Below, piece by piece: positions 3,118 to 9,932 of a stretch of DNA of 10,195 nucleotides. Below the pieces are notes generated by a model that was given only the letters and a program-made list of their open reading frames with translations, was not told where the DNA came from and searched no databases. Position 1 is the first letter of the stretch. Every line of letters begins with the position of its first letter. The position numbers and the translations under genes are program-made. Source of the DNA: an uncultured Bacteroidales bacterium (GTDB lineage: Bacteria > Bacteroidota > Bacteroidia > Bacteroidales > Muribaculaceae); the NCBI GenBank assembly GCA_947175585.1, contig CAMWNL010000023.1, positions 1 to 10,195 of the forward strand, read 5' to 3'.

Positions 3118-4353
3118 TTATTTTGCGAAGCGGCCGGCCATGATGATTGAACCGGTCTTATTGTTGCGAATGAAATAGATAAACGGACGGTCAAAATTCA
3201 AGGTGACTTCGCCGGCAATCGCTAACCCAGGCGAGCTGCTTCCAGGAGCAAGAGTAACCGCTGCAGCGACTGTGCCATCTTCGTCGGTAGAGACTTTAGC
3301 AGTATGACCTAAGCTCAGAGAAATATTATCTTCGGCGCCATCAATGCCTTTCAAATGACCACTCCGCATATCAATACCAAGGCCGCTCAAGACATCATTA
3401 CACTGCGCATGAATTTCCGATTCAAATTTTGGAAAAGACAGATTGACAATATAGTTGGCGCGCTCACTGATACAACGAGCTAAATCTTCAGCATTAAAGG
3501 TCGATGAAAAGTCATCAATATCCAAACCTTCGGCCGGAAGGACGGCTATCATCGAGCAATTTCCTTTATAGCCTAAAGTCACGGCTTGAAAGCGGTCACA
3601 GGCCATGTAGGGCATGACTCGCTTGTCGCACATATAGTCAACACTCCTGTCTACCCCTGAACCGTGAAACTCGCCTGTGACTGTATTGGTCTTTGAAAAT
3701 TTTGTTTTCCACTCACCTTTGAAATACATTGCATTGGCTAAAAGCACTCTGGTACCTACAAGTTCAAGTGGGCCAACCACGTGGTCAATGACATTTTTGG
3801 TTGAGCGAGCCGCCCAGCTATTGATGGTTTTAGCGGCAGCTTCAGTGTTTGAGAAATTAAGCGTTGAGATATCACTGAAGAAATAGTCGGTAAGAGCTGA
3901 GCGGCATGCAGCGGTCGGAGCGAGGCCGGTATCACACCAAAGCGCATTGGCAAGCGAGAGTTCGCACTTATTTGAAGGATCGGGCAGAAACATCATCAGC
4001 TTGCGGCACAATGAATTGAGTTCATCTACATTATTGCAGTCAAGGGCAGACAGCACGCCTGAGGTAAAATCGTCATTATAGACATTTGCACACATGCCTA
4101 ACGCAATAGCCATACTGACGGGTGACACAGCGAAGTTTGGATTATCGTGTAGAATTTTTGGGTCGGACGATACGGCATTGAACAGTCGCAGTCCAAAATC
4201 ATTGAGATTAGTATTTACGGTTTGTTCAGAACGGGTCAGATTGATTTCGGGAGTTGTAGGCTGCTGACGGTCGGGCTCATCACTGCTACATGAAGAAACG
4301 GCAAAGCAGAAACCAAGCGTCAAAAAAAGAATGGGAAGAGATTTAGCTTTCAT
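3118..4353 (-). CDS. Serpin lipoprotein (serine/cysteine protease inhibitor)
   Basis: The protein has 411 residues. A lipoprotein signal peptide ends at the lipobox VSSC with C22; the following SSDE resembles the acidic surface-export signals of Bacteroidetes lipoproteins, so cell-surface display is likely but inferred. The body is a full-length serpin: FAVSPVSMAIALGM (74-87), LLANAMYFKGEW (204-215), FPKFE (307-311) and the C-terminal FDRPFIYFI (387-395) followed by IIMAGR. The reactive-loop hinge DEDGTVAAAVT (357-367) has the small residues needed for loop insertion, so it is predicted to be inhibitory. Serpins trap proteases by covalent suicide inhibition after cleavage at P1. P1 falls between S374 and I379, because the loop is about five residues longer than in alpha-1-antitrypsin. 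It lies 40 bp downstream of a C10 protease gene and has its own candidate promoter. Target (the neighbouring protease, or host/competitor proteases) is unknown. Confidence 0.95.
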   Translation of the reverse strand: MKAKSLPILFLTLGFCFAVSSCSSDEPDRQQPTTPEINLTRSEQTVNTNLNDFGLRLFNAVSSDPKILHDNPNFAVSPVSMAIALGMCANVYNDDFTSGVLSALDCNNVDELNSLCRKLMMFLPDPSNKCELSLANALWCDTGLAPTAACRSALTDYFFSDISTLNFSNTEAAAKTINSWAARSTKNVIDHVVGPLELVGTRVLLANAMYFKGEWKTKFSKTNTVTGEFHGSGVDRSVDYMCDKRVMPYMACDRFQAVTLGYKGNCSMIAVLPAEGLDIDDFSSTFNAEDLARCISERANYIVNLSFPKFESEIHAQCNDVLSGLGIDMRSGHLKGIDGAEDNISLSLGHTAKVSTDEDGTVAAAVTLAPGSSSPGLAIAGEVTLNFDRPFIYFIRNNKTGSIIMAGRFAK

Positions 4354-4381: not shown

Positions 4382-4412
4382 CAAAATTAAAAATTAAATT
4401 TTATAGTACCAA
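4382..4412 (-). promoter_or_regulatory. Candidate promoter of the serpin gene
   Basis: On the minus strand, TTG (4410-4412) is followed by exactly 20 bp and then TAATTTTG (4382-4389), matching the Bacteroides TTG/TAnnTTTG architecture. The -33 lies inside the last codons of the C10 protease gene. The predicted start, around 4375, leaves a leader of roughly 22 nt before the serpin ATG at 4353. The AT-rich background raises the chance of a coincidental match. Confidence 0.55.
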
Positions 4413-5704
4413 TATAGAATCGTACTTTTATCATATACATTTGAGCTATAGTTAAATTCATACGAAAAATCATACTCAGTGGCATTACGAGGCTGGACTG
4501 CGTCAAGATTAAACCAACCATTACATGAACCGCCCCAGCCCCAATTATAATGGATTAGGTTTGTCTTCTCATGTATTATGTATTCAGTATTATATACATT
4601 AGAGTCAGAATCATCAAGATAATGACGAATTATAGTATATTCGATATTTTTTGTGCCATCAGCAATAAATGTATGCCCTAACTTGATATTTCCTAAACGT
4701 CTATAATCTACGATTGCCAATCCACCATAATAATCAATATCAGAGAATAAGGAACTCAATACGCCTTGCCTATCGTATGGCTTTATCCCTGTATATTTAT
4801 TTATTATATCTTCTATATACATTCCTGTAACAACTGAACTTTTCCCATCATCAGCATATTCACAATTTGCCAAATGTCCAATTTCTCTTATAATACGGCC
4901 AATAGTATTATGAATAGATTGTGTTGCAGAACATTCAGTACACCAATAGGCTTCCGATGAGTGTTTGTGTTTTTTTATTTCCTTCCAGTTCAATGTTTCA
5001 GCATCGATGTCTTTCTCCGGAAATGTATAAGTGATATAATCGGGTTTTTCCATTGTTGCTAAAGCTTGAGCAATTGCGACTGGGACGCAACCGGCAACTC
5101 CATTAGGAGCATATATGTTTTCTGGCCACCTTTGAGCCCACGCAACCTCTACAAGAGGCTCGTGAACACGATTAACCTTAATGGTATCATAATATTCTAA
5201 CACCTTGAATATGGGTAAAAGTGGCAGGTCTGGATCTGGGATTAAGGGTAAGCCATTCGTACCTGACGCTGATTGCGTTGAAACATAGTTTTTAATAAGA
5301 TTGAGCGTTTCTTGATAGGCCTCATTGTCTTGATTTTCATAATCTGAATATGAGCCGGAGTCGATTATAGCCATAATCGGCTCAACACCTTTGGGAGCTG
5401 CAACAAGGACAAAACCGCCGTCGTCTTCTATATCTAATGCGTAGAGCAATGTATCAGCATCGCCACTACGAGTCTGTGCACCTACAATTATATGCGCACA
5501 GTCTACGCTTTTTAGCGCGACACCACTTCTTGAGCCTACGTCCTCAGTGGCCAAGACTTTTCCTGCTATCTCGATTGCATCTTCGACTGACCTGTATTTT
5601 GATAAGCGAGGAGACTCATTGAGAATATCCTTTGGCTGTTCAACTGACTCCGAACAGCTTGCAAATGCCATTGCTAAAGCAAGCAGAAATAAAATCTTTT
5701 TCAT
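4394..5704 (-). CDS. Secreted C10 (streptopain-like) cysteine protease lipoprotein
   Basis: The ATG at 5704 gives 436 residues beginning MKKILF, with a lipoprotein signal peptide and lipobox FASC (C17). An upstream in-frame ATG at 5788 would add 28 residues before the signal peptide and lies upstream of the predicted transcript start, so it was rejected. A propeptide follows; residues 97-119 (GGFVLVAAPKGVEP and on) match the inhibitory pro-domain seen in SpeB and Bacteroides C10 proteases. The catalytic domain has WAQ (189-191, oxyanion-side Gln), NGVAGCVPVAIAQ with nucleophile C206, GHTFIADG with catalytic H344, and HYNWGWGG (385-392). All active-site elements are present, so an active papain-fold protease is predicted, anchored in the outer or inner membrane by lipid. 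The family processes extracellular proteins; the substrate here is unknown. A serpin gene follows, and the promoter carries the same two-box element as the regulator gene. The gene is noticeably AT-rich. Confidence 0.93.
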   Translation of the reverse strand: MKKILFLLALAMAFASCSESVEQPKDILNESPRLSKYRSVEDAIEIAGKVLATEDVGSRSGVALKSVDCAHIIVGAQTRSGDADTLLYALDIEDDGGFVLVAAPKGVEPIMAIIDSGSYSDYENQDNEAYQETLNLIKNYVSTQSASGTNGLPLIPDPDLPLLPIFKVLEYYDTIKVNRVHEPLVEVAWAQRWPENIYAPNGVAGCVPVAIAQALATMEKPDYITYTFPEKDIDAETLNWKEIKKHKHSSEAYWCTECSATQSIHNTIGRIIREIGHLANCEYADDGKSSVVTGMYIEDIINKYTGIKPYDRQGVLSSLFSDIDYYGGLAIVDYRRLGNIKLGHTFIADGTKNIEYTIIRHYLDDSDSNVYNTEYIIHEKTNLIHYNWGWGGSCNGWFNLDAVQPRNATEYDFSYEFNYSSNVYDKSTILYWYYKI

Positions 5705-5757: not shown

Positions 5758-5788
5758 CAAAATTAAGCATAGACCGAGGCATCGGCAA
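5758..5788 (-). promoter_or_regulatory. Promoter of the C10 protease gene
   Basis: Minus-strand TTG (5786-5788), a 20-bp spacer and TAATTTTG (5758-5765) match the Bacteroides -33/-7 promoter. The predicted start is near 5751, leaving about 46 nt before the ATG at 5704. The conserved box CGTAAGAGCTGA ends 15 bp upstream of the -33 TTG, the usual place for an activator. Confidence 0.75.
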
Positions 5789-5803
5789 GAGATTTACAAG
5801 AAA

Positions 5804-5892
5804 TCAGCTCTTACGTCGTCCTTCATTTTATCGAGATAAACAACTATTATTCAACGGTTTATCAATGCGAGATATTTAAAAAATTCTTACGC
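5804..5892 (-). promoter_or_regulatory. Two-box regulatory element, copy A (protease promoter)
   Basis: Read on the minus strand, this 89-bp element starts with GCGTAAGAATTTT (box 1, CGTAAGA at 5885-5891) and ends with CGTAAGAGCTGA (box 2, 5804-5815; CGTAAGA at 5809-5815). The boxes are 76 bp apart. A third conserved patch, plus-strand TCAACGGTTT at 5851-5860, lies at the same offset (47) from the proximal edge as TCAACCGATT in copy B. It is proposed as a binding region for the HTH regulator encoded just upstream; this is inference from conservation and spacing. Confidence 0.65.
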
Positions 5893-5923
5893 AAGAAAGC
5901 CCTAATGGATAGCACTCTGACTA

Positions 5924-7612
5924 TCAAAGACTTTGCTTCGGTCTGCTATTACGCTTCGAGTCCAATATCTCAAGGAAGTCATCGCGGTCCGGACAGCCGG
6001 AACCTTTTATCTTATTTTTAAGTCTTGACTTAAGCTGATGGAGTGCATTTATATTGTTAAGCTCCAATAACTGGCAAATCGAAGTATTAGAAAATCCAGC
6101 AGCCTTAAACAGGAAATAATCTATCTGTTTGGTTGTCAAAGAATCAATTTGTGATTTTAACCTTTGCACTATATCACCATAATAATAGCTAACAAATTTA
6201 TCAATCTGCTCCAACGAATCTTTAGCCTTGACCCTGTCGAGAGCTGTCTTAAATGTTTTTCTTAAATAACGGTTACCTTCTTCGGAGTCAGGCGACTGGC
6301 TATCAATTGTCAACAAATCATCTACAAAATTTATAAAAGAACTATCAAAGATGCCCTTATCTAAACGCATGGTTTCGTCCCCAATCTCTTTTATCTCACG
6401 TTTTAAACGCCTGATATCAGATATCAGGATTTCTTTTTCGGCATTGTCAATCCTAACTTTTCTTATATGCAACACATAAACCATTATTGCAAATATCACA
6501 GATATTATAGCTATGAAAAACCATAGCCATAGTTTATATCGAGCCAGCTTATAATTCTGCAGATTTTTTGACGCTTCGGACGCTAAATACTCGGATAGCA
6601 CTATTGTATAAGGGTGAGTCAACAAATAACCTGCTCTTTCACTTTCATGCTTATAATACTGGCTCTCTATTTGATAGGCTTTTTTATAATCACCCTTCAA
6701 GGCTATTAGATCAGCTTCTACCAAAATAATAAATGCACTATCTGTATCTAATACAATATGGATTCTCGCACTATCTAAATACTCCTCGGCCTTAAGTCCA
6801 TCGCCTAAATTTATGCAACAAAACGCCATACGCGACCAATCGTTAGCACTTACACTGGGTGCTTCATCTGCCGCTAAATTATACCAGTCTAAAGCTTTTT
6901 GATAATTACCCGTATAAAATTCGGACAAAGCTCTGGTACAATAATACCAGCTTAAACATATCGGCGGCTGTAAGAAAAATTCATCCTGCGCATTTTCATC
7001 AAGAATCTTCACAGCGTCATCAATCCTCCCACTTCTAATAAGATAATGAGGTAATGCCACCTTTTGATATTTGGCATAAAGTGGCCTACCGGCAGCAAAA
7101 AACTCCTCGATCGCAATACTATCACTCTTAGCGGCTGCATCATAAGCCATAACCATGTTATAGACATCTGATATTGACCTGCTGCTCATGGCTTTGTAGA
7201 ACAGATCGCCGCAATTGTCGGCAATTTCATGAGCCTGCATAAGAGAGACAAGTGCGCGGCCATAATCGGAGTTATTATATTGGACTAAGCCTCTATAATA
7301 TAGAGCCTGGGCTTCGACACTATCATTACGTCCCTTAAAAACACGCGTTGCATAATCAATGGGGGCAATATCTTGTGGTTCGAGATATGCTTTATCGGAG
7401 GCCTTGGTTTCCAAGAGATAATAGTATGCTCGCTGCTCGTCTGATATTCCGACTGTGTCAGCAGCATGCAGCAGCGTTAAGGCTGAATCAGGATAAGCAC
7501 AAACTATTTTGTCGGCACTCTCCAGCATAGCATCGATATGGCGATTACACTGACAGGCAACAGGCAGCATGAGCGCAAAAACAATCGTCAATTTGAGCAA
7601 TAAACACTTCAT
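5924..7612 (-). CDS. Membrane-spanning TPR sensor with cytoplasmic HTH (one-component regulator)
   Basis: This 562-residue protein starts with a signal peptide (residues 1-22; PVAC at 17-20 is only a weak lipobox because of Pro at -3). A long TPR-type helical region follows, with repeats visible at about 100-136, 218-253, 260-286 and 294-325. A single transmembrane helix spans about 361-381 (LWLWFFIAIISVIFAIM and on), followed by a basic stop-transfer stretch and a coiled coil (389-415). The C-terminal part contains a LuxR/sigma-4-like helix-turn-helix at about 491-536 (LTTKQIDYFLF, then SNTSICQLLELNN and a recognition-helix-like LHQLKSRLKNKI). This architecture, periplasmic TPR sensor, one TM and cytoplasmic DNA-binding domain, is common in Bacteroidales and usually controls neighbouring genes. 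No receiver or kinase domain is present. The ligand is unknown. It lies 219 bp upstream of the protease gene, and the two share a promoter element. Confidence 0.8.
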   Translation of the reverse strand: MKCLLLKLTIVFALMLPVACQCNRHIDAMLESADKIVCAYPDSALTLLHAADTVGISDEQRAYYYLLETKASDKAYLEPQDIAPIDYATRVFKGRNDSVEAQALYYRGLVQYNNSDYGRALVSLMQAHEIADNCGDLFYKAMSSRSISDVYNMVMAYDAAAKSDSIAIEEFFAAGRPLYAKYQKVALPHYLIRSGRIDDAVKILDENAQDEFFLQPPICLSWYYCTRALSEFYTGNYQKALDWYNLAADEAPSVSANDWSRMAFCCINLGDGLKAEEYLDSARIHIVLDTDSAFIILVEADLIALKGDYKKAYQIESQYYKHESERAGYLLTHPYTIVLSEYLASEASKNLQNYKLARYKLWLWFFIAIISVIFAIMVYVLHIRKVRIDNAEKEILISDIRRLKREIKEIGDETMRLDKGIFDSSFINFVDDLLTIDSQSPDSEEGNRYLRKTFKTALDRVKAKDSLEQIDKFVSYYYGDIVQRLKSQIDSLTTKQIDYFLFKAAGFSNTSICQLLELNNINALHQLKSRLKNKIKGSGCPDRDDFLEILDSKRNSRPKQSL

Positions 7613-7634
7613 ATCGGGCTATAATAATCGGTAG

Positions 7635-7665
7635 CAAATTTAGCATAATATAGCGTGACCCACAA
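7635..7665 (-). promoter_or_regulatory. Promoter of the TPR/HTH regulator gene
   Basis: Minus-strand TTG (7663-7665), exactly 20 bp, then TAAATTTG (7635-7642), matching the Bacteroides -33/-7 consensus. The predicted start is near 7628, giving a short leader of about 15 nt before the ATG at 7612. The conserved box CGTAAGAGCTGA ends 15 bp upstream of the -33, as in the protease promoter. Confidence 0.75.
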
Positions 7666-7680
7666 GGATTTTAATATAAT

Positions 7681-7768
7681 TCAGCTCTTACGCGACCCTT
7701 TTTCGGTTACAAATAATAACTTATATATCAACCGATTGCAAAATCATCTTTCAACAAAATTCTTACGC
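7681..7768 (-). promoter_or_regulatory. Two-box regulatory element, copy B (regulator promoter)
   Basis: On the minus strand, this 88-bp element runs from GCGTAAGAATTTT (box 1, CGTAAGA at 7761-7767) to CGCGTAAGAGCTGA (box 2, CGTAAGA at 7686-7692), with the boxes 75 bp apart. It is collinear with copy A: the terminal 12 bases on each side are identical, the central TCAAC patch sits at the same offset, and the intervening bases have diverged. The position upstream of the regulator's own promoter suggests autoregulation. Confidence 0.65.
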
Positions 7769-7802: not shown

Positions 7803-7855
7803 AAAAAATCTCAGCTTCGAAAGTCGGCGTTGGCCAACTCTTAGAAGCTGAGATT
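7803..7855 (-). terminator. Rho-independent terminator after the SGNH/nagA operon
   Basis: A perfect 12-bp stem pairs AATCTCAGCTTC with GAAGCTGAGATT (7807-7818 and 7844-7855). On the minus strand it is followed by a run of six T (7803-7808, partly shared with the stem base). The 25-nt loop contains a second perfect palindrome, GTTGGCCAAC (7829-7838). It lies 19 bp past the stop of the second SGNH hydrolase, so it ends that operon and insulates the regulator's promoter region. Confidence 0.85.
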
Positions 7856-7874
7856 AATTATCAGGTAATTTTGG

Positions 7875-8600
7875 TCAGTCGACTATGACGTTTTCGAGAG
7901 CGTCAATAAGGACATTGGCCATGCGCTGATATCCTAAATCGTTAGGGTGCACAGCGTCATTGGTATAGCCATTTGATTGACGGGCATTGTTAAGTGATTC
8001 ATTGAGCAATGTGCGTTGTCCTCCACAATATTTATAGAAGTCAGCAACAGGTATTGACTCATAATCAGCAATCTGACGAGCCATATCGGCGTATTCACTT
8101 AAATAGATTCCATTTTTAGGGTCATAGCAGTGATCAGGCAGATAGCCGGAGAATCCGAAACCACGGCGCGGAGTGCAAATCACAATCTTTGCCTTAGGAT
8201 TAGCCTTATATATCGCATCAATAAGCTTACGATATTCAGCAGCAAATGTGCCGTTATTCGTATTGTTGATGTAATCATCAATCGTGCCTACCGGAATCGA
8301 CTGTCCCCAGTCATTGATACCGTGCTCGATGGTATAGTAATCGGCAGGTATCACATTTGCTAACGCTGTCTTCAAGGCGCCACCGTTGACAGCCTTATTA
8401 GAGTATTGGGTAAAACCCAATTTCTCCATAACTCTTGACTGGTAGCCCTTGGTGAATCCGCCGTTTGAGGCGTTCACATTTTCGTTATACCATGTGATTG
8501 ATGTGCCGAGAGCGCACCAATGACCTTTCACTTCGCGCACCTGTGAGAATATTGGAAACGCCGACAGAGCGACCGCAGCTATAATCAGTAATTTTTTCAT
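7875..8600 (-). CDS. Secreted SGNH/GDSL-family hydrolase (second copy)
   Basis: The protein has 241 residues with a signal peptide (about 1-19, cleaved near IFS-Q20). All four SGNH blocks are visible: LGTSITW with nucleophile S34 (GTS instead of the usual GDS), NGG (72-74) for the oxyanion Gly, GIND with N96, and DAVH with D215 and H218. The fold is predicted to hydrolyse ester bonds, commonly acetyl esters on glycans or lipids, outside the cytoplasm. The substrate is not recognisable. It is very similar to the upstream SGNH protein over the whole catalytic domain, including a nearly unchanged stretch from ADYYTIEHGINDWG to GTFAA. It lacks that protein's N-terminal module. It lies 12 bp downstream of the 161-residue gene and ends before a strong terminator, so it is the last gene of the nagA-led operon. 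Confidence 0.9.
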   Translation of the reverse strand: MKKLLIIAAVALSAFPIFSQVREVKGHWCALGTSITWYNENVNASNGGFTKGYQSRVMEKLGFTQYSNKAVNGGALKTALANVIPADYYTIEHGINDWGQSIPVGTIDDYINNTNNGTFAAEYRKLIDAIYKANPKAKIVICTPRRGFGFSGYLPDHCYDPKNGIYLSEYADMARQIADYESIPVADFYKYCGGQRTLLNESLNNARQSNGYTNDAVHPNDLGYQRMANVLIDALENVIVD

Positions 8601-9125: not shown

Positions 9126-9932
9126 TCACTCAACGATTATCTTTTCTAAAGCCTTTGCAAGCACATTGGCCATCATCTGGTAACCATCGTCATTAGGATG
9201 CAGTGCATCATCGATTGACAGTTCCTTGAGATTATTCTGAGCACCACACAGGCTAAAGAAATCAGCTACAGGCATAGATTCATATTCGGCAATCTCGCGG
9301 ATCAGTTTTGCATAATCTTCAAGATAGATGCCATTTTTCTCATCATACCAGTGTCCGGGCAGATATCCGCTGAAACCATAACCCTTGCGAGGAGTGCAGA
9401 GCACTACTTTAGCATTGGGGTTCAGTGAGAAGATTTTATCTATAAGTCTTCTGTAATCAGCAGCAAATGTGCCGTTGTTGGTATTATTGATATAATCGTC
9501 AATCGTGCCAACGGGAGTCGAGTGCCCCCAGTCATTGATGCCATGCTCTATTGTGTAATAGTCTGCTTTTACCGGACGGCTGACTGAAGCTGCGATACAA
9601 CCGCCGTTATCACCGACGTTGGAGAGACTCGTAAATTCGAGCTTGTCCATCACGCGATCCTGATAACCACGTGTAAAACGTCCGTTTGACGCCGACACAT
9701 TATTATTATACCAGGTTATAGATGTTCCGATTGAACACCATGAGCCGTTGACTTTCTGCGGACCGACTGTAGAAACCGTACCGCTCGGAGTGTCCATGCT
9801 GAATACGATTTCGTCGACAGTCGACGGTGCCACACTGAGTATCTCCTGTCCCTTCTGCACAATAGTTATGCTTTGGGCGCTGGCAGCGAGAGATAAAACT
9901 ATCGCCGATGCGAAAAGAAATAGTTTTTTCAT
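9126..9932 (-). CDS. Secreted SGNH/GDSL-family hydrolase with N-terminal beta module (first copy)
   Basis: Starting at the ATG at 9932 gives 268 residues with a clean signal peptide (MKKLFLFASAIVLSLAASA, cleaved before Q20). A longer frame using GTG at 9959, overlapping the nagA stop, would put nine polar residues ahead of it and is less likely. Residues 21-50 form a short beta module ending STVDEIVFS, followed by a Ser/Thr/Gly linker. The catalytic domain has IGTSITW (nucleophile S71), NGG (109-111), GIND (N133) and DALH (D242, H245), so it is predicted to be active. It is a close paralogue of the second SGNH protein downstream. It starts 23 bp after the nagA stop, consistent with co-transcription. 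An esterase acting on acylated amino-sugar glycans would suit the nagA neighbour, but this is inference. Confidence 0.9.
   Translation of the reverse strand: MKKLFLFASAIVLSLAASAQSITIVQKGQEILSVAPSTVDEIVFSMDTPSGTVSTVGPQKVNGSWCSIGTSITWYNNNVSASNGRFTRGYQDRVMDKLEFTSLSNVGDNGGCIAASVSRPVKADYYTIEHGINDWGHSTPVGTIDDYINNTNNGTFAADYRRLIDKIFSLNPNAKVVLCTPRKGYGFSGYLPGHWYDEKNGIYLEDYAKLIREIAEYESMPVADFFSLCGAQNNLKELSIDDALHPNDDGYQMMANVLAKALEKIIVE

Follow-up and report, generated by a model that had tools for sequence, protein, structure and literature searches.

Paired boxes in helical phase around an IHF-like site recur at promoters beside putative membrane-anchored TPR/HTH regulators in Bacteroidales

Regulators of the ToxR/CadC type consist of a periplasmic sensor, one transmembrane helix and a cytoplasmic HTH domain acting on nearby genes, and proteins of the Rap/NprR type reside in the cytoplasm and bear their effector domain at the N-terminus. 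Regulators anchored in the membrane, operators in tandem and loops formed with IHF are already known individually. In the part of PMC7366714 cited here, housekeeping promoters of Bacteroidales carry TAnnTTTG at −7 and TTTG near −33; an excerpt of PMC8421141 gives the IHF consensus as WATCARNNNNTTR and names gene regulatory loops for IHF; and the bfp/bfi and btp/bti operons of Bacteroides, according to an excerpt of PMC3462683, contain C10 protease and inhibitor genes with environment-regulated expression. Among the literature matches listed, neither a combination of these elements into a rule that spans a large paralogous family with private words nor described targets of TPR/HTH regulators like the one reported here were found.

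The window, i.e., the whole stretch of 10,195 nucleotides that was analysed, is one whole contig of a 2.17-Mb Muribaculaceae assembly of 409 contigs that is 77% complete. Transcription on the minus strand runs through module B (7768-7635), the regulator gene, module A (5892-5758), the C10 protease gene and the serpin gene (Table 1), the last two of which probably share an operon. The structure model of the whole regulator had a pLDDT of 83.7. A Pfam scan of this protein at E values up to 0.1 returned TPR families and weak unrelated matches, with no kinase and no receiver domain, and the NCBIfam models gave no match. Based on the sequence and the model, the regulator is predicted to reside in the inner membrane, with the TPR domain in the periplasm and the HTH in the cytoplasm. 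Elsewhere in the window, two GDSL-type lipase genes were observed at 7875-8600 and 9126-9932 with a gene for a 161-residue protein between them, and a long inverted repeat noticed by eye at 7807-7856, between a lipase gene and module B, is perhaps a terminator.

Table 1. Coordinates of the features of modules A and B and of the associated genes in the window
Feature	Position	Strand	Remarks
C10 cysteine protease gene with Spi-type propeptide (target gene)	4394..5704	-	PF01640, E 6.6e-20; PF13734, E 9e-08
Serpin gene, 40 bp 3' of the protease gene	3118..4353	-	PF00079, E 1.8e-69; gap from ORF coordinates
Regulator gene: signal/lipobox-like N-terminus, TPR domain, one predicted transmembrane helix (approximately residues 361-383), C-terminal HTH	5924..7612	-	TPR families, hydropathy, structure models of the whole protein and of the C-terminal part
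Module A distal box GCGTAAGAATTTT	5880..5892	-	exact 13-mer repeat of 7756-7768
Module A IHF-like site ATTCAACGGTTTA, between the boxes	5849..5861	+	one mismatch to WATCARNNNNTTR
Module A proximal box CGTAAGAGCTGA	5804..5815	-	exact in both modules
Module A −33 TTG, protease promoter	5786..5788	-	consensus as in the cited part of PMC7366714
Module A −7 element TAATTTTG	5758..5765	-	
Module B distal box GCGTAAGAATTTT	7756..7768	-	exact 13-mer repeat of 5880-5892
Module B IHF-like site TATCAACCGATTG	7726..7738	+	exact consensus
Module B proximal box CGTAAGAGCTGA	7681..7692	-	
Module B −33 TTG, regulator promoter	7663..7665	-	
Module B −7 element TAAATTTG	7635..7642	-	

Two promoter modules with common boxes and identical geometry had been described in the first-pass annotation, and this structure is established: both modules read GCGTAAGAATTTT, a spacer, CGTAAGAGCTGA, 15 bp, TTG, 20 bp and TAnnTTTG, with the 13-mer and the 12-mer exact in both and spaced 76 bp apart in module A and 75 bp in module B. 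The proximal box starts 27 bp upstream of the −33 TTG, and the two boxes are both situated 5' of the −33 element, clear of the promoter core. Compared with the Bacteroidales consensus in the excerpt of PMC7366714, the −7 element is exact in both modules and the −33 element appears as TTG versus TTTG. Alignment of the two modules showed agreement in 86 of 137 columns. Within the inter-box stretch, agreement was limited to 33 of 65 columns (score −5.0 versus a shuffled mean of −12.2, sd 4.3); with the boxes identical, this indicates that the boxes were kept while the rest diverged, as had been claimed. The 7-mer CGTAAGA, said to be confined to four sites, was indeed found in only four copies when both strands of the window were counted, all on the minus strand at those sites; by itself this count is weak evidence, because four copies were reached in 6 of 200 dinucleotide shuffles. 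Two modules of the same orientation flanking one gene, with slight residual similarity between the boxes, might also result from a meaningless promoter duplication in which module B was copied to the protease gene, or the reverse, and is now decaying. We regard such an origin as very improbable, since a decaying copy would not retain all 13 and all 12 bases of the two boxes alongside the low inter-box agreement given above, and since other loci show the geometry with words of their own.

TPR/HTH regulators were detected in 68 of 109 family genomes at the threshold used, and relatives of the regulator were present in 32 of 61 genomes searched, with up to nine per genome and mostly <30% identity. 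Regulator orthologues were found among the genome contigs neither by single protein nor by alignment, none with >30% identity at E up to 1e-60 was found in 397 family genomes besides the window, and no orthologous DNA was found in the other 48 of 49 genus genomes; homologues at 87, 66, 43, and 40% identity were found as protein records only. One relative (G003, locus L071, 7151-8819) has its regulator gene split by stops into two pieces.

A search of related genomes for the boxes, as proposed in the first-pass annotation, recovered the geometry beside regulators and not the literal word. The CGTAAGA pair was found in 67 of 297 family genomes, was not commoner than the reversed control, and many of its matches were one recurring coding-like sequence; therefore, the word carries no family signal and was rejected as a family-wide word. 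Scattering of the boxes through the genome, which would have spoken against a dedicated site, was not seen, as CGTAAGA-N50-80-CGTAAGA occurs in the same 77% complete assembly only at modules A and B. Three other regulators examined in this assembly (L062, L078, and L079) had different words or no repeat. Beside relatives, the same layout was observed with TGTAAC-like boxes, located before the regulator in L064 and L065 and before the following gene in L063 and L069, one or both boxes in the latter two being merely GTAAA or GTAAT; the TGTAAC-type layout occurred 0 times in reversed sequence. TGTAAG boxes showed the same geometry in L113 and L114, and some relatives had the module solely in front of the regulator. 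The pattern GTAA-GTAA-TTG-TAnnTTTG at module distances was found at 51 places in 46 of 397 family genomes versus 12 in the reversed control. Twenty of these places were examined in context, with 7 directly beside a regulator (L118 being a truncated ORF) and 13 not; five more (the window twice, L063, L064, and L065) were all beside a regulator. By eye, boxes were at times seen in copies about 10 bp apart, e.g., TGTAACGCCGTGTGACGC, like side-by-side half-sites (L063, L113, and L118-L120).

A test blind to the word was applied to 81 loci containing 87 regulator genes, comprising 60 further regulator loci taken by score and coverage and 21 earlier ones; at least two rows in the same score range (G024 and G011, each containing an in-frame stop) were excluded. 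Promoters of the form TTG-N19-21-TAnnTTTG outside long ORFs were examined for repeats: a 9-mer located 14-36 bp 5' of the TTG counted as repeated when it recurred at ≥8 of 9 bases 45-109 bp further upstream, and near-copies were removed before counting (downstream promoters from 35 to 31, upstream promoters from 25 to 24). Promoters downstream of regulators carried a repeat in 22 of 31 cases versus 6.0 ± 1.9 in dinucleotide shuffles, the other 9 having none. Combining proximal and distal parts of different loci gave 7.5 ± 2.6, and this low count indicates that the word is local to each locus. Background levels were obtained for promoters upstream of regulators (5/24; shuffle, 4.3) and for other promoters in the same loci (15/91; shuffle, 14.1). 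The pattern had been read as that of a protein-binding site; the recurrence of the geometry beside regulator relatives is in line with this reading, while conservation of the words did not hold, each locus having its own.

The box spacings clustered at 53, 64-65, 74-75, 85, and 95-96 bp, which are one helical turn apart. The period was 10.5-10.7 bp (R 0.56), with 10 and 11 bp scoring nearly as high (0.53 and 0.54, respectively), and the Rayleigh test on the spacings assumes independent matches, which these are not. Windows for the initial in-phase test were fixed after sight of the same loci, with mononucleotide shuffles and with L071 dropped; module A is absent from the in-phase 9-mer matches because its boxes match over 7 bases and differ beyond. 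For the held-out loci, spacings of 64, 74-76, and 85 had been noted before the loci were fetched and the window widths were set later; near-copies were left in this set and in the replicate. Downstream promoters of the held-out loci showed in-phase repeats in 8 of 21 cases versus 0.80 ± 0.83 (at most 3 in 200 mononucleotide shuffles), compared with 0/17 upstream and 2/62 elsewhere (1.64 expected from shuffles). A second replicate comprised 40 new loci, including 8 from other families in this order, with windows slightly changed (55, 87, and 97 added; 73 and 77 dropped). Here, in-phase repeats were found at 10 of 23 downstream promoters versus 1.29 ± 1.04 (at most 4 in 100 mononucleotide shuffles), 13 having none, and out-of-phase repeats numbered 5 versus 2.88. 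Upstream of regulators, 1 of 8 was in phase and 4 of 8 were out of phase (versus 1.35 ± 1.14), and other promoters gave 4/49 versus 2.42. In the 8 loci from other families, 2 of 3 downstream promoters had repeats, at 63 bp (L208) and 76 bp (L212). The recurrence of the geometry, the locus-specific words and the helical phasing are established as sequence patterns.

We infer that the boxes are bound by the adjacent regulator. They might instead be read by some other, unlinked regulator that co-controls the protease and the TPR gene, the neighbouring regulator being a mere fellow target. HTH identity and word similarity were not significantly correlated (r 0.117, p 0.10; 18 loci, hand-picked words), and binding by the neighbour is a proposal from sequence. 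However, the repeats concentrate beside one regulator family and differ in word between loci, a pattern that one shared, unlinked factor would not generate, and CGTAAGA pairs at such spacing occur nowhere else in the assembly of the window; we therefore consider control by an unlinked regulator rather unlikely.

The simplest model offered at first pass was an autoregulatory circuit also driving the protease. The tie of the arrangement to the regulator family supports it in part, but the window was the only locus seen in which the regulator and target promoters have a box in common. In 79 regions, words common to the upstream and downstream sides of the same regulator had a distribution resembling that across loci, and among the 15 longest words listed the window's alone is a box; accordingly, the autoregulatory half looks like a trait of the window locus. 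Other shared words were rejected as boxes, that of L074 reflecting a tandem regulator pair and that of L188 being promoter sequence.

The central TCAAC patch pointed out in the first-pass annotation is real and forms the core of a site that matches the IHF consensus exactly in module B and, but for one mismatch, in module A; in both modules its centre is 40 bp from the proximal word. The motif was first noticed by eye in part of the same set of loci and tested afterwards. With near-copies included, it was found at 17 of 35 downstream promoters versus 1.1 ± 1.1, at 5 of 25 upstream promoters versus 0.5 and, as a mild enrichment, at 7 of 91 other promoters versus 1.8 ± 1.3. Without near-copies (L071, L188, L191, and L161 dropped), it was present at 15 of 31 downstream promoters (7/18 in the held-out part), permuted motifs having a mean of 1.0 with 0 of 500 reaching 15. 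When the spacer of the motif was varied, the count peaked at 4 bases only (15), with spacers of 0-3 and 5-8 giving no more than 4. Density was 2.27 sites per kb in non-coding DNA within 450 bp after regulators, 0.386 in other non-coding DNA and 0.119 in coding DNA. The replicate gave 7/23 downstream, 2/8 upstream and 3/49 elsewhere. In loci from other families the density was 2.73 versus 0.36 per kb (6 and 3 sites), and beside weaker matches of the same family it was just 0.70 versus 0.43 per kb (7 and 22 sites). The IHF consensus is established as enriched after these regulators. DNABII genes (PF00216) were found in 47 of 48 genus genomes searched, the sole exception being the 77% complete assembly of the window.

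Placement of the site was examined in 31 box pairs, with L071, L161, and L150 dropped. An exact site lay between the boxes in 11 pairs (shuffle, 0.30 ± 0.58) and a site within one mismatch in 20 (shuffle, 5.45 ± 2.04). In pairs seven turns apart, the site was 37-40 bp from the proximal word in one orientation (modules A and B, L062, L067, L183, and L194), except in L069 and L212, where it did not have this arrangement. Seven pairs six turns apart (L070, L169, L176, L186, L217, L219, and L220) had the site at 15-21 bp in the opposite orientation, and further six-turn pairs (L068, L078, L143, L208, and others) differed in its placement. Phasing of the IHF-like sites themselves was ambiguous, periods of 10 and 12 bp scoring alike. 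In L068, L071, L078, and L143, inverted TGTAA...TTACA arms were seen by eye between the boxes, some replacing an exact IHF-like site.

Direct repeats are combined with IHF sites in integrase sites as well, and the boxes and IHF-like sites might on this ground be arm-type (att-like) sites of a recombinase, not operators. Such a role is extremely improbable in view of the fixed distance of the modules from the TTG-N20-TAnnTTTG promoter and of the scan of seven window proteins, none of which was a recombinase within the window.

The explanation that we favour with good confidence is that the TPR/HTH regulator whose gene lies between the modules uses the boxes as its paired operator, for a periplasm-sensing, bend-assisted activation of the neighbouring gene. 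Upon a periplasmic signal, the membrane-anchored regulator would bind two identical boxes lying on the same face of the DNA seven turns apart; whole-turn spacing with a bend site between suggests that the two box-bound units touch, and a bend at the IHF-like site would bring the boxes together. The proximal box may then position the complex for recruitment of RNA polymerase. The copy in module A would drive the C10 protease and probably the serpin, and that in module B the regulator itself, the same words at the regulator's own promoter implying autoregulation, here a positive feedback. Location of both boxes upstream of the promoter suggests activation. The same operators and regulator could alternatively form a repression loop, as same-face spacing with a bend site is the layout of such loops too; with both boxes upstream of the −33 element and the promoter core free, repression is possible but unlikely. 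Since repression and activation by this pair differ in sign alone, the confidences attached to them overlap.

The genes after the regulators were searched against Pfam in a set of 33, comprising 30 first genes after the promoter and three after the L064 and L065 regulators, with L150, L161, L164, L188, and L191 left out. Matches included TonB_C (3), serpin (2), DUF3244 (2), and OMP_b-brl (2), and one each of C10 protease, S41 peptidase, TonB-dependent receptor barrel, OMP_b-brl_3, LRR_5, and DUF6383; at least 17 of the 33 had no Pfam match at E 0.01, many of them being short with a signal-like start. The common theme of the targets is secreted or envelope products. The regulators of L067 and L073 have a serpin-like gene as their first downstream gene; together with the serpin of the window, this indicates that protease inhibitors recur as targets. 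The gene after the module in L194 (4990-5202, minus strand) encodes a 70-residue Cys-rich, RiPP-like peptide with an FVKGG (GG) leader; TPR genes are mentioned in RiPP clusters in the cited passage of PMC10352776.

We judge the odds to be even that the arrangement represents an architecture of the whole regulator family in Bacteroidales, in which five to nine turns separate two locus-specific boxes on a common face, a bend site of the IHF type occupies a fixed place between them, and no regulator other than the neighbouring membrane-anchored TPR/HTH protein reads a given pair. Since relatives often keep the geometry with a word of their own, several channels could run in one cell. On the family-wide reading, each cell would possess a number of mutually insulated channels from periplasm to promoter, serving secreted proteases and serpins as well as small secreted proteins and peptides; the words of these channels would diverge with the spatial layout preserved. 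With a rule of fixed layout and variable words, the promoter controlled by each regulator becomes predictable. The arrangement also supplies natural regulator-operator pairs that may be insulated from one another, illustrates divergence of operator words at constant geometry, and hints at IHF-type bending in ordinary gene control in Bacteroidales.

Compared with the known systems, the window regulator resembles ToxR/CadC in its predicted periplasmic sensor domain, single transmembrane helix and cytoplasmic HTH. ToxR and CadC have an N-terminal winged HTH and a C-terminal sensor, unlike the order of TPR, membrane helix and HTH indicated by sequence and model; with this order reversed, the regulator was not assigned to that type. 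Nor was it classed with the HTCS of Bacteroidales, as the Pfam scan showed no histidine kinase or receiver domain. In the fold comparison of the whole model, NprR (4gpk) and Rap (4gyo) ranked among the best matches, covering the TPR part; different from the Rap/NprR type, the window protein has a predicted membrane helix and a C-terminal HTH. As in the bfp/bfi and btp/bti operons described in the excerpt of PMC3462683, the C10 protease gene adjoins a protease-inhibitor gene; here the inhibitor is a serpin, and 'tetratricopeptide' appears 0 times in the text available of that paper. With the IHF-assisted regulatory loops of the excerpted PMC8421141, the locus shares an IHF-consensus site in a regulatory region. 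In contrast to them, two operator copies enclose the candidate bend site here, 5' of a −33/−7 promoter of the Bacteroidales type, and the operator words vary by locus.
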